Source: an uncultured Lactobacillus sp. (lineage in GTDB: Bacteria > Bacillota > Bacilli > Lactobacillales > Lactobacillaceae). From it: a DNA stretch of 51,586 nucleotides. Under the pieces are notes generated by a model that was given only the letters and a program-made list of their open reading frames with translations, made no database searches and was not told the DNA's origin. Every line of letters starts with the position of its first letter. Positions within the stretch are counted from its first letter, which is position 1. The stretch spans positions 1 through 51,586 of the forward strand of contig NZ_CANBCQ010000013.1 of the NCBI RefSeq assembly GCF_947367125.1, in the 5' to 3' direction. This document shows positions 30,573 to 34,375 of the stretch, in pieces. A program made the position numbers and the translations under genes.

Positions 30573-30607
30573 AAAAAGGAATGTGTCAAAATGATACATT
30601 CCTTTTT
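30573..30607 (+). terminator. Terminator after the hydrolase gene
   Basis: AAAAAGGAATGT-G-TCA pairs with TGATACATTCCTTTTT. Its 3' side is the first copy of the 24-bp repeat that borders the bacteriocin locus. Confidence 0.88.
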
Positions 30608-30622
30608 GAATACAATAATTTA
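30599..30622 (+). repeat. 24-bp direct repeat, left copy, bordering the bacteriocin locus
   Basis: This stretch, TTCCTTTTTG...AATAATTTA, is identical over 24 bases to 34365-34388. The copies are 3.77 kb apart and enclose the bacteriocin genes. The left copy includes the 3' arm of the hydrolase terminator. Confidence 0.85.
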
Positions 30623-30829
30623 ATTTTACAAACTATATATATCAATTAACTAATGTGACTATAAAATACTAGCTATGCTTAAAGCACAAAACACAGATAC
30701 TATTGTTTTTAATAAGTCAACTGCAAATAAAGGAACAAAAGATGATTGCTTGCTATTGAAACCGATTACAAAGGGGGCTATATTGTAGGTGAAGACAAAA
30801 GTGAAGAATAATTCTTCAGAGGTAATTTT

Positions 30830-30997
30830 ATGGAAGAAACTAAATTTGATGAAGTTCCAGAAGAGGAACTTGAGTCGGCAGTTGGTGGTAGACATAGGAA
30901 AGAATCCGATAGTTGGATGACTCATGTGATTGAATTTGGAAAAGGTTTTTTAAATAGCTTTGCAACTACTGGAAGCCATTTGAAGGGAAGTAACTAA
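30830..30997 (+). CDS. Double-glycine bacteriocin prepeptide 1 (55 aa)
   Basis: The 55-residue peptide begins with a class II leader (MEETKFDEVPEEELESAVGG, 20 residues; hydrophobic residues spaced before GG). The predicted mature part is 35 residues, starts RHRKESDSW and continues as an amphipathic stretch (WMTHVIEFGKGFLNSFATTG). AGAGG lies about 10 bases upstream of the ATG. The next gene starts one base after the stop. An ABC exporter with a leader peptidase follows, supporting the call. I do not recognise the mature sequence from any named bacteriocin. A 37-codon frame upstream (30675-30788) has no ribosome binding site and is probably not a gene. Confidence 0.82.
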   Translation: MEETKFDEVPEEELESAVGGRHRKESDSWMTHVIEFGKGFLNSFATTGSHLKGSN

Positions 30998-30998
30998 A

Positions 30999-31190
30999 AT
31001 GGAAAAAGAGGAACTCAAGAAGTATGAATCATTGAACAATGATAATTTATCTGATACAGTAGGTGGCCATCGTCATAGACATAGTGGATATTATGATGCA
31101 GGTCATTATGTAGGAAAGGCTGTACAAGCTGCGGCTGCAGTGGCTACAATTATTGGCTTATGCTGTGTAGCGAAGAACAATAAAGAGTAA
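30999..31190 (+). CDS. Double-glycine bacteriocin prepeptide 2 (63 aa)
   Basis: The leader is about 23 residues, ending NDNLSDTVGG. The mature peptide is about 40 residues. It starts with the unusual HRHRHSGYYD, contains GHYVG (a GxxxG motif), then the alanine-rich helix KAVQAAAAVATIIG, and ends with two adjacent cysteines (LCCVAKNNKE). GxxxG motifs and tandem GG-leader genes are hallmarks of two-peptide (class IIb) bacteriocins, so this is probably the partner of the 30830 peptide. The adjacent cysteines are atypical. The start codon is one base after the previous stop. Confidence 0.85.
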   Translation: MEKEELKKYESLNNDNLSDTVGGHRHRHSGYYDAGHYVGKAVQAAAAVATIIGLCCVAKNNKE

Positions 31191-31210
31191 CTTTAATATT
31201 TGTTAAAGAA

Positions 31211-31423
31211 ATGATAAAAATGAAAAATGAAATTTTAATTTACAAGTTACTTTCGATAATAACAGGCGTTCTTATTTTGACTCTGATTTTGTTGGTGAAT
31301 CCCACGACTTTATTTAATAAAGCAATTGATTTTTTATTAGTAGTAGCGTTAATTATTGTTGATATAAAAATTATTATAGAAGTCAGAAAAGCCAAAAAAG
31401 TAAAAAAAGAAAAGGATGATTAA
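31211..31423 (+). CDS. Small two-helix membrane protein, probable bacteriocin immunity protein
   Basis: The product is 70 residues (67 if ATG 31220 is used). It has two hydrophobic helices (about 10-28 and 35-56) and a strongly basic/acidic tail (EVRKAKKVKKEKDD). Its place directly after two bacteriocin prepeptides is where immunity genes normally lie. It has no motif of a known immunity family, so the role is inferred from context. Confidence 0.7.
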   Translation: MIKMKNEILIYKLLSIITGVLILTLILLVNPTTLFNKAIDFLLVVALIIVDIKIIIEVRKAKKVKKEKDD

Positions 31424-31438
31424 TATTCCTTATAGGTG

Positions 31439-31473
31439 AAAGTCTTTGAATTGAGAAAATTCAAAGACTTTTT
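31439..31473 (+). terminator. Terminator between the peptide/immunity genes and the exporter
   Basis: AAAGTCTTTGAATT pairs perfectly with AATTCAAAGACTTT (14 bp) and is followed by TTT. It probably makes peptide mRNA more abundant than exporter mRNA. Confidence 0.85.
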
Positions 31474-31503
31474 GCATAAATAATTCATTGAGGAGATGAT
31501 TTA

Positions 31504-33666
31504 ATGCTATTGAAATATAAGTGGGAGTATATTCCTCAAATAGACGAATCAGATTGTGGTGTTGCGTGCTTGGCAATGATTCTAAAACATTATCATAGTC
31601 AGGTATCGATTGCACATTTGCGACATATGGCAAAAACTAACACAGAAGGGACAAGTGCTCTAGGATTAGTAAAAACTGCTGAACAATTTAATTTGGAAGT
31701 TCAAGCAATAAAAGCGGATATGACTCTGTTTGATATAAAAGATTTACAGTATCCGTTTATTGTTCATGTAATTAAAGATGGAGACCTTCTTCACTATTAC
31801 GTAGTCTTAGCTAGTACCAAAAAATCAATAATTATCGCTGATCCAGATCCAGAAGTTGGTATAAAACGGATGTCCAGAAAAGAATTTGAAAAAGAATGGA
31901 CTAGAATTACTCTTTTAATGGCACCAACTACTGAATTTAAGCCAGTGAAGGAAAAGAGAAATACTTTTTTATCACTATTTCCATATATGCTAAAGCAAAA
32001 GAAAATTGTCAGAAACATAGTCTTGGCTTCTCTTCTTATGACAATTATCGGAATTTGTAGTTCATATTTCTTACAAGGAATAATTGACACCTATATTCCA
32101 GATGGGACATATTTTACCTTGTCAGTTATTGCAATTGGATTATTAGTTGCATATGTATTCAATTCTATCTTTTCATATGGGCAGCAGTTTTTGTTAAATG
32201 TGTTAGGTCAACGCCTTTCAATCGATTTAAATTTAAAGTATATTAGGCATATTTTTGAACTTCCGATGGAATTTTTTACCACTAGAAAAACTGGTGAAAT
32301 TACGTCAAGATTTTCTGATGCTAGTAAGGTTATTGATGCTTTAGCTACAACAGTTATTTCACTATTTCTAGATTTAACGATTGTAATTTTAATGGGAATA
32401 ATGCTAGCCGTTCAAAACTTAACTTTGTTCTTAATCACAATTGCGACACTACCATTGTATGCAATTGTGATTTTAGGTTTTGCTAAGCGTTTTGAACGCT
32501 TAAATAATGATCAAATGGAAGGTAATGCGATAGTTAGCTCCTCAATTATTGAAGATATTCAAGGGATTGAAACTATTAAGGCTCTAAATAGTGAGGAAGT
32601 TCGCTATCGAAGAATTGACAATCAATTTGTTAACTTCTTAAGAAAATCATTTAAGTATAGCAAAACTGAAGCATTACAGGATGCATTGAAATCATTTATC
32701 CAGATGTCGTTAAACGTAGTAGTATTATGGATCGGCTCTTGGATTGTCATGCATAATAAAATGACAATTGGTGAGTTAATGACTTACAATGCTCTTTTGG
32801 CATATTTTGTTAGCCCTCTACAAAATATTATTAACTTGCAACCGTTACTTCAATCTGCCAATGTGGCTCAAAATAGGTTAAACGAAGTTTATCTTGTAAA
32901 TAGTGAGTTTGATAGTAAGACTGATACGGTTAAGAAAGTTGATCAAATCAAAGGTGATATTGAATATAAACAAGTAAGTTATAAATATGGGTATGGCAAA
33001 GATGTTTTACAGAATATAAACCTTAAAATTAAACAAGGTGAAAAACAAGTTATAGTTGGAATGAGTGGATCGGGTAAATCTACTATGGTAAAAATGTTGG
33101 TTGCCTTTTTTGCGCCAAATGAAGGTACAGTAACAATCAATGGAATTCCTACAACAGCAATTGATAAACATGTACTAAGATCATATATTACGTACGTACC
33201 GCAGACTCCATATACCTTTGCGGGTACAATTAGAGAAAATTTATTATTAGGAAGTAGACCCGATACAACTGAAGTGGATATGATAAAAGCTTGTCAATTA
33301 GCTGAATTTGAGCATGAGGTAGAAAAGCTGCCTTTAAAGTTTGATACTCCATTGGATGAAAATGCCAAAGTGCTTTCTGGTGGACAAAAGCAACGCTTGA
33401 CCATTGCAAGAGCAATATTATCACCCGCTAGTGTTTTAATTTTTGATGAATCGACTAGTGGCTTGGATACTATAACGGAGAAAAAGGTAATTGATAATCT
33501 AATGAAATTACAAGATAAGACTATTATTTTCATTGCCCATAGATTATCGGTTGCTAAAAGAGCCGATGATATCGTAGTAATTGATGACGGTAAAATAGTT
33601 GAAGAAGGTAATCACAATAAATTAATGGCTAACAAAGGTTATTACTACGATTTGGTTAATAGTTAG
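31504..33666 (+). CDS. Bacteriocin ABC transporter with C39 leader peptidase domain
   Basis: The 720-residue protein starts after GAGGAGATG. The N-terminal C39 peptidase (1-140) cleaves GG leaders: Gln12, Cys18 (SDCGVACL), His97 (LLHYYVV) and Asp113 (IADPD) form the expected catalytic set. The membrane domain (about 150-440) has six helices. The ATPase domain has Walker A GMSGSGKST (about 520), signature LSGGQKQR (about 624), Walker B VLIFDEST and the H-loop IAHRLS. The length and order match ComA/LagD-type exporters. It would process and export the two peptides encoded upstream. Confidence 0.95.
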   Translation: MLLKYKWEYIPQIDESDCGVACLAMILKHYHSQVSIAHLRHMAKTNTEGTSALGLVKTAEQFNLEVQAIKADMTLFDIKDLQYPFIVHVIKDGDLLHYYVVLASTKKSIIIADPDPEVGIKRMSRKEFEKEWTRITLLMAPTTEFKPVKEKRNTFLSLFPYMLKQKKIVRNIVLASLLMTIIGICSSYFLQGIIDTYIPDGTYFTLSVIAIGLLVAYVFNSIFSYGQQFLLNVLGQRLSIDLNLKYIRHIFELPMEFFTTRKTGEITSRFSDASKVIDALATTVISLFLDLTIVILMGIMLAVQNLTLFLITIATLPLYAIVILGFAKRFERLNNDQMEGNAIVSSSIIEDIQGIETIKALNSEEVRYRRIDNQFVNFLRKSFKYSKTEALQDALKSFIQMSLNVVVLWIGSWIVMHNKMTIGELMTYNALLAYFVSPLQNIINLQPLLQSANVAQNRLNEVYLVNSEFDSKTDTVKKVDQIKGDIEYKQVSYKYGYGKDVLQNINLKIKQGEKQVIVGMSGSGKSTMVKMLVAFFAPNEGTVTINGIPTTAIDKHVLRSYITYVPQTPYTFAGTIRENLLLGSRPDTTEVDMIKACQLAEFEHEVEKLPLKFDTPLDENAKVLSGGQKQRLTIARAILSPASVLIFDESTSGLDTITEKKVIDNLMKLQDKTIIFIAHRLSVAKRADDIVVIDDGKIVEEGNHNKLMANKGYYYDLVNS

Positions 33667-33678
33667 GGGGAACTTGTT

Positions 33679-34320
33679 ATGGAATATAAAGATTTAGAAA
33701 GTAGCAAGTTTTATTCTTATAAATTTAAAAATTTTTCAACTATGATTATTTTGCCAGCCTTTCTATTAGTCGTATTTGTTCTTGTAGGGTCAGTATTTGC
33801 TGTACGTGAGAAAACGGTAAAATTAGTTGGGATAGTAGAACCCACTAGCTCCTTAAATGTAAAAAATGATGCTGAATATTATGAAGGACAAATAATTGGA
33901 AAAGGAAAGAGTGTTGTTCTAAACTCAGGGAGAAAAATTAAGACAAGTAAAGTTAATGAAGTGCATTTCTCGGGAAATAATGTGGTTTTGTTTCCGAATC
34001 TAACTGATCAAAAAGAAATTAAAGTAGCTTCATATGCACCAAATGACGAAATTTCACTTTTGAAAAATGGACAAAAAATAAAGTTTCAAATAAAAAATAG
34101 GTATGGTGAAAATATAATTATTGATGGAAAAATTAACAGCGTAGCGATTTATCCTAAAGAAGTTGGTGGCAAAGAGGGTTACTTAGTGATGTCAACAATA
34201 TTACCGACTGAAAAAGAAAAATCATATTTAAGATATGGGATGGAGAGCCAAGTTACAGTAATTATAAGTAGACAAACCTACTTTAATTTCCTAAAGGATG
34301 AACTTTTTGATAAACAATAG
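33679..34320 (+). CDS. Bacteriocin secretion accessory protein (membrane-fusion type)
   Basis: The 213-residue protein has a cytoplasmic N-terminus, one helix (about 20-42) and an extracytoplasmic beta-rich domain with a hairpin-like KNGQKIKFQIKNRYGENIIIDGKI. It starts 12 bases after the exporter, following GGGGGA. This is the position and layout of the LcnD/MesE-type accessory proteins that work with C39 exporters. It is much shorter than the usual 450 or so residues and lacks the long coiled coil, as do some lactobacillus versions. Confidence 0.82.
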   Translation: MEYKDLESSKFYSYKFKNFSTMIILPAFLLVVFVLVGSVFAVREKTVKLVGIVEPTSSLNVKNDAEYYEGQIIGKGKSVVLNSGRKIKTSKVNEVHFSGNNVVLFPNLTDQKEIKVASYAPNDEISLLKNGQKIKFQIKNRYGENIIIDGKINSVAIYPKEVGGKEGYLVMSTILPTEKEKSYLRYGMESQVTVIISRQTYFNFLKDELFDKQ

Positions 34321-34350: not shown

Positions 34351-34375
34351 GAAAGGCATGTGCCTTCCTTTTTGA
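34351..34375 (+). terminator. Terminator at the right end of the bacteriocin locus
   Basis: AAGGCA pairs with TGCCTT around TG, with a further AAAG/CTTT extension, followed by TTTTT that belongs to the right direct-repeat copy. Confidence 0.75.

Follow-up and report, generated by a model that had tools for sequence, protein, structure and literature searches.

Which kind of bacteriocin, if any, is encoded by two tandem GG-leader peptide genes in an uncultured Lactobacillus sp., and how did these genes come to stand where they do? The window analyzed here is the whole 51,586-nt contig NZ_CANBCQ010000013.1 (assembly GCF_947367125.1), and all coordinates are window positions. Five genes encode the peptide precursors pep1 and pep2, a small hydrophobic protein, an exporter with a C39 peptidase domain, and a short accessory protein (Table 1). 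A sequence-only reading had described them as an apparently undescribed two-peptide locus of class IIb. Judging from the genes, their homology and conservation, and the insertion site, we consider it highly probable that they are a self-contained cassette, gained by acquisition, which encodes a two-peptide bacteriocin of the plantaricin S type.

Peptide pair and its family

In sequence, pep1 corresponds to the beta peptide of the plantaricin S (Pls)/muricidin (Mur) family and pep2 to its alpha peptide. The similarity of both window peptides to the matching Pls/Mur peptide exceeds that of shuffled sequences, which places them in the family. When 25 peptides were ranked by leader-free models, the top places in the alpha model were taken by the alpha peptide of genome G190, Mur-alpha, and Pls-alpha, and those in the beta model by the G190 beta peptide, an L. 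nantensis peptide, Mur-beta, and Pls-beta; these seven scores were reached by 0 to 2 of 10000 shuffles. Below Pls and Mur, the alpha model placed plantaricin E (9.5 bits) and a peptide from contig C24 of the window's own genome (8.3 bits). Peptides of other class IIb types were rejected: in the alpha model, many shuffles scored as well as the peptides from L. taiwanensis and L. zeae, which we take to be lactacin F-like, and one L. taiwanensis peptide was reached by 126 of 10000 shuffles in the beta model.

Profile searches of 397 Lactobacillaceae genomes at E 0.001 gave a similar picture. The seven-row beta profile matched 19 genomes, including that with muricidin beta (E 8.5e-8, L086), where the muricidin letters are identical to Table 5 of PMC5471241, and it also found peptide pairs in G190, G457, and G412. 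The alpha profile matched 11 genomes, with G190 the best outside the genus; the G190 pair thus bridges both profiles (beta E 1.5e-10, alpha E 3.2e-12). Many of the other matches that were opened proved to be leader-only or other GG peptides. Against PDB, the best match of the beta profile was plantaricin S beta (6go0), with an E of 0.038 that is weak by itself, and the alpha profile had no match.

The likeness extends to particular residues. Muricidin of L. murinus DSM 20452 is likewise a two-peptide pair and shares with the window the beta core FGKGFLxxF and the alpha core GHYxGKAV, whereas the window peptides are longer, the window alpha starts with HRHRHS, and the residue before FGKG is Glu rather than the Ser of Mur-beta. 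Plantaricin S (PDB 6gnz, 6go0) shares the alpha stretch GHY(A/V)GKA with its GxxxG motif and the beta pattern W...FGxGFLN, but residues 2-22 of Pls-alpha lack His-Ser, and S17xxxG21 of Pls-beta is replaced in the window beta by ExxxG, followed by GFLNS. A closer relative is the pair of L. intestinalis DSM 6629, listed in 2017 as a potential class IIb pair in Table 5 of PMC5471241. Its alpha belongs to the same subfamily with an N-terminal His-Ser, and its exporter and short accessory protein match those of the window at 70% and 40%, respectively; the locus differs in having a kinase, a LytTR regulator, and a CAAX-protease-like (Rce1-like) protein, and its peptides match pep1/pep2 at 36%. The supposed novelty may hold for the exact pair and not for its kind, since the plantaricin S/muricidin kind is already described; searches of open-licence papers with fragments of the window peptides found none, which is weak evidence, as a Pls-alpha fragment was likewise missed there.

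Several results weigh against this assignment. The mature window alpha found no plantaricin match in PDB, and the alpha profile at E 0.001 did not retrieve the muricidin genome among the 397. Because the G457 and G412 peptides score lower (the G412 beta being reached by 256 of 10000 shuffles) and the L. nantensis peptide (14.1) outranks Mur-beta, the family edge is soft. Against Pfam Bacteriocin_IIc (PF10439), pep2 scores 13.9 bits, the gathering cut-off being 27.1, and pep1 has no match; pep1 matches NF038034 (lactGbeta_entB) at E 0.017 and 15.3 bits, with a cut-off of 37. The Ser of S17xxxG21, a motif taken from Pls-beta mutagenesis and not a formal definition of the family, is replaced by Glu in five (pep1 among them) and by Gln in two of the seven subfamily betas. 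Finally, the immunity candidates of related loci are 11-49% identical to that of the window, with the Met and one Pro invariant.

Related loci and insertion sites

A pep2 search matched three of 41 genomes, the own genome included. Profiles run against 75 genus genomes at E 0.01 matched 10 (pep2) and 13 (pep1), although several weaker matches were leader-only or other GG peptides on inspection. Alpha-beta loci were accepted in six of the 75: the window, MGBC166701 (G078), two loci in Lactobacillus sp. LL6 (G024), L. agrestimuris (G044), L. intestinalis (G007), G056 (alpha and beta on two contigs), and a broken locus on contig C56 of the own genome. No relative of pep2 appeared in a contig collection, though LL6 and MGBC166701 are present there, so that scan was insensitive.

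In the window, MGBC166701, and first LL6 loci the genes follow a common order (those for beta, alpha, the small membrane protein, the exporter, and the accessory protein), and their exporters form one clade with 100/100 support in a ten-row tree. All three have two adjacent GG-leader peptide genes, as had been noted for the window, where the single base 30998 separates pep1 from pep2. The orthologous pairs are 60/55% and 44/46% identical; ratios of nonsynonymous to synonymous substitution (dN/dS) are 0.09, 0.34, and 0.29 for pep1 and 0.17 and 0.25 for pep2, the third being saturated, and with dS of 1.3-2.6 these ratios are rough. Chance open reading frames (ORFs) are ruled out by the orthologues and the low dN/dS. 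The loci of L. agrestimuris, L. intestinalis, G056, and C56 include genes for a kinase and a LytTR regulator. Rce1-like proteins are encoded at those of L. agrestimuris and L. intestinalis and at the second LL6 locus, where the 9 kb fetched showed no kinase or regulator.

The C56 locus (L064/L047) is a degraded paralogue. It comprises genes for a kinase, a regulator, a short accessory protein, and a Fic-domain protein, along with an immunity-like gene, an exporter in two frames, a broken beta, and two His-Ser alphas; the contig bears an 'uncultured Clostridium' title in the public record. Contig C24 holds a second two-peptide-like GG pair (L048:4939-5299) with an exporter and a 373-aa accessory protein.

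The window cassette lies between a hydrolase and a permease gene, is flanked by two identical 24-bp repeats that have only these two copies in the own assembly (allowing up to two mismatches), and carries no integrase. By eye, seven of the 75 genus genomes (G051, G023, G048, G019, G088, G045, G043) have the same two genes next to each other in convergent orientation, the protein matches being 46-62 bases apart; their fragments lie side by side in G058, and in the remaining listed rows the genes are apart. When the window flanks were joined and compared by BLAST with these seven, the alignment crossed the junction in six, at 77% identity in the two closest, and in the seventh (L113) was confined to the permease side. 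The cassette was apparently acquired and inserted between two ordinary genes.

The genes appear as a compact cassette at different sites in three genomes. In LL6 the cassette follows prs, and an exact 125-bp copy of the 3' end of this gene flanks it. In MGBC166701 it lies 3' of guaA and is followed by a gene with a P-loop-like stretch (by eye, with no Pfam match) and by genes for a replication-type protein, a DUF3173 protein, and a tyrosine integrase; the far end of this element was not found, as no repeat longer than 8 bp (shared by eye) turned up in the 14.6 kb searched, and a search of the MGBC166701 genome returned one exact copy. In Tn7088 of L. crispatus M247 (PMC10763512), an integrative mobilizable element has a bacteriocin cluster for cargo, as the MGBC166701 locus suggests, but that cluster encodes a class I thiazole/oxazole-modified microcin (TOMM) and occupies a tRNA-Thr site, and the window cassette has no integrase. 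Plasmid origin was rejected: pep2 is unmatched in 72,556 plasmid records, and none of the 82 records with an accessory match covers 80% of that protein. Viral origin was rejected as well, the accessory protein having no relative in the viral contigs searched.

Three other explanations of the locus have to be weighed. Pheromones, too, can have GG leaders and C39 exporters, and some related loci have an extra short GG peptide beside their kinase and LytTR genes; the window peptides might accordingly be quorum-sensing pheromones or other signals. We regard this as very improbable, given that the cassette itself has no kinase or regulator (nor a pheromone, as the sequence-only reading had correctly stated), that both peptides are of Pls/Mur alpha and beta type, and that an immunity-like gene is linked. 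The NF038034 match of pep1, and the joint alignment of Pls-beta with LcnG-beta in PMC6382864, would suit a bacteriocin of the lactococcin G/enterocin 1071 type; with a score so far below the cut-off, the GHYxGKA stretch of Pls-alpha and Mur-alpha in pep2, and leader-free models that put the Pls/Mur peptides on the right sides (in a set without lactococcin G), that type is likewise very improbable.

A silent locus, intact only through recent acquisition, is also highly unlikely: all five genes are open with their motifs intact, and dN/dS among the sister loci is well below 1, though dS is near saturation. Its appeal comes from the sporadic occurrence of the sister cassettes (three of 75 genus genomes, the own one included), the broken C56 locus, and an L. 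kefiranofaciens locus that retains an accessory remnant only. In that genome (ATCC 43761; L059:4012-5027), the remnant, at 67%, stands beside a weak transposase-like ORF below the Pfam cut-off.

Glycine motifs, histidines, and proposed mode of action

The plantaricin S-type pair adds natural variants to a small bacteriocin family whose peptide structures have been solved (plantaricin S). In both mature window peptides we observe a GxxxG or GxxxG-like motif, GHYVG in the alpha and GFLNS in the beta. The former, already noted in the sequence-only reading, is G12xxxG16 and corresponds to G9xxxG13 of Pls-alpha; in the ten subfamily alphas its first Gly is invariant and the second is Gly in seven and Ala in three. 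In the published Pls-alpha mutants, G9A caused a 20-fold and G13A a 2-fold loss, and Leu at either position a loss of more than 40-fold (PMC6382864). At the sequence level, the natural alpha variation is in agreement with this mutagenesis. The natural beta motif departs from it: S17xxxG21 is important in Pls-beta (same source), while the subfamily betas keep its Gly invariant and retain a downstream GF(L/W)x(S/G) in all seven. We infer that the beta contact moves one turn toward GxxxG/S. The adjacent cysteines pointed out in pep2 are present and not conserved, with one Cys in LL6 and none in MGBC166701, and disulfide chemistry in the alpha was dropped.

If the leaders are cut after GG, as predicted (...ESAVGG/RHRKE and ...DTVGG/HRHRH), the mature peptides begin as had been proposed. 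A His-Ser near the mature N-terminus is found in all ten subfamily alphas (window, L049, L055, L054, L050, L056, L052, L078, and two from C56, one of these with its leader in another frame), a count that is partly circular, as the subfamily was drawn by similarity including this stretch. Pls-alpha (residues 2-22 seen), Mur-alpha, and the G190, G457, and G412 alphas lack it, and so do four alpha-like GG peptides of the genus that are more distant, L012 (beginning RNKLAYN), L010, L041, and C24; the idea of a genus-wide alpha trait was withdrawn on account of these four. Among 13 other GG peptides from 30 PF10439 loci, parsed roughly and with several doubtful rows, one has His in its first six residues and none has His-Ser. 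Fisher tests against those 13 give p 9e-7 for His-Ser and 1e-4 for His at position 2 or 3, values that are not true probabilities for related sequences. Five of the seven betas have His within the first six residues.

The amino-terminal copper and nickel binding (ATCUN) pattern NH2-X-X-His fits pep2 by sequence. His3 is found in six of the ten alphas, which led us to reject ATCUN as a strict rule, and His2 or His3 in nine. The conservation of His-Ser within the subfamily makes a role of the alpha histidines plausible without indicating its kind, and the His-tailed subgroup provides candidates for metal or pH control. A bolder scenario is that, in one branch of plantaricin S-type bacteriocins within Lactobacillus sensu stricto, GG cleavage exposes a conserved His-Ser (often ATCUN) terminus, which would act as an acid sensor or as a ligand of copper, nickel, or zinc and let metal or low pH switch killing, and that the genes spread as a 3.8-kb integrase-free cassette entering intergenic sites at gene 3' ends; we hold this to be unlikely. 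Literature listings giving the starts of abstracts showed no clear case of a copper- or pH-dependent two-peptide bacteriocin in print. A second His-rich N-terminus in the genus is that of an unrelated GG peptide, L031:1363-1599, whose mature form starts with RHGHGHGHYHGG.

From the gene set we infer the following mode of action, beginning with promoter use. A sigma-A type promoter would drive pep1, pep2, and the immunity gene, and a hairpin may let only part of the transcripts reach the exporter and accessory genes. Both leaders would be cleaved after GG by the C39 domain, and the exporter and short accessory protein would release the mature peptides, which would turn helical at the target membrane and pair through alpha G12xxxG16 and the beta G19xxxS23 motif. 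The paired peptides would then insert and kill close relatives, probably via a membrane receptor, while the small membrane protein would shield the producer. The published plantaricin S model is an antiparallel, receptor-mediated membrane dimer with a receptor not yet described (PMC6382864). Plantaricin JK uses an APC protein as receptor (PMC4985602); the neighbouring APC permease was set aside for this role, being a flanking gene matched in 70 of the 75 genus genomes.

Accessory genes and expression

Table 1. Features of the bacteriocin cassette and its borders (window positions).
Feature	Position	Strand	Description or basis
24-bp exact direct repeat, left copy, 3' of alpha/beta hydrolase gene	30599..30622	n/a	Repeat search
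Putative promoter TTGAAA-17-TATATT	30756..30784	+	Promoter scan, 10/12 matches
pep1, beta peptide precursor (Pls-beta/Mur-beta-like)	30830..30997	+	55 aa; mature RHRKESDSWMTHVIEFGKGFLNSF...
pep2, alpha peptide precursor (Pls-alpha/Mur-alpha-like)	30999..31190	+	63 aa; mature HRHRHSGYYDAGHYVGKAV...
Small hydrophobic (two-helix) protein, probable immunity	31220..31423; listed ORF from 31211, 70 aa	+	Position and linkage; putative function
Hairpin, 15-bp stem, immunity-exporter gap, attenuator-like	31438..31472	+	Stem common to 3/3 sister cassettes
C39 peptidase-ABC exporter, 720 aa	31504..33666	+	TIGR01193, catalytic residues, exporter tree
Short accessory protein, bacteriocin-secretion accessory family, 213 aa, middle part missing	33679..34320	+	TIGR01000 partial match
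Terminator-like site, 3' of accessory gene	34353..34373	+	Scan: 2 sites found vs 1.7 expected
24-bp direct repeat, right copy, adjoining permease stop codon	34365..34388	n/a	Repeat search

The 70-residue protein described earlier as two-helix is present; its two helices come from hydropathy only, and the ORF may start at the second Met (31220), where the LL6 homologue aligns. A small hydrophobic protein near the alpha gene is found in all seven loci examined (six pairs and the G056 alpha), and by this linkage it is the likely immunity protein. A profile of the seven proteins matches 16 of the 75 genus genomes at E 0.01, beyond the alpha-beta loci too. Orphan immunity genes without a bacteriocin pair are common; immunity-like small genes at L167:1498-1680 and L166 (~1490-1660) have no peptide pair within ~3 kb.

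The exporter scores 1039 bits against TIGR01193, above the curated cut-off of 523.85. The Cys18, His97, and Asp113 reported for its C39 domain are all in place, and its ATPase motifs GMSGSGKST, SGGQ, and LIFDE are intact. In L062, a contig titled Faecalicatena absiana, the exporter groups with that of L. agrestimuris, by contamination or transfer.

The accessory protein, rightly called short, is a shortened relative of its family, well below the full length of the 457-position TIGR01000 profile: it scores 124.7 bits (cut-off 258.85) in two stretches, the best covering profile positions 348-456. Its residues 1-92 align with 1-86 (43%) and its residues 104-210 with 264-370 (28%) of the C24 homologue, so ~177 intervening residues are missing. 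It is 39-73% identical to five other Lactobacillus accessory proteins.

The promoter scan found 26 sites where 19.3 were expected, so the site upstream of pep1 is not significant alone. All three sister cassettes have TTGAAA and TATA(T/C/A)T upstream of the beta gene, the other two with TATACT at spacing 18 and TATAAT at spacing 16 (by eye). A CTTTGAA/TTCAAAG hairpin precedes the exporter in all three; a run of at least five T follows it in the window and in LL6, whereas MGBC166701 lacks such a run, and the window hairpin was not called by the terminator scan. The stretches fetched around the other two cassettes showed no kinase or regulator.

Other loci of the subfamily have a leader motif, TATATATGTAAGTTGATG, near or upstream of the peptide genes (L050:4300, L056:5456, L064:4967 and 7619; upstream in L050, L056, and C56, and less exactly in L054). 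Some copies are followed by a CTTAG...CTAAG-like stem, and the motif is possibly a regulator site or RNA element. Upstream of the peptide genes in the three sister cassettes it is absent, allowing up to two mismatches. The conserved promoter-like site, the hairpin, and the absent motif favour expression without a dedicated regulator. The own genome holds the kinase-regulator pair at C56, and control from elsewhere is possible.

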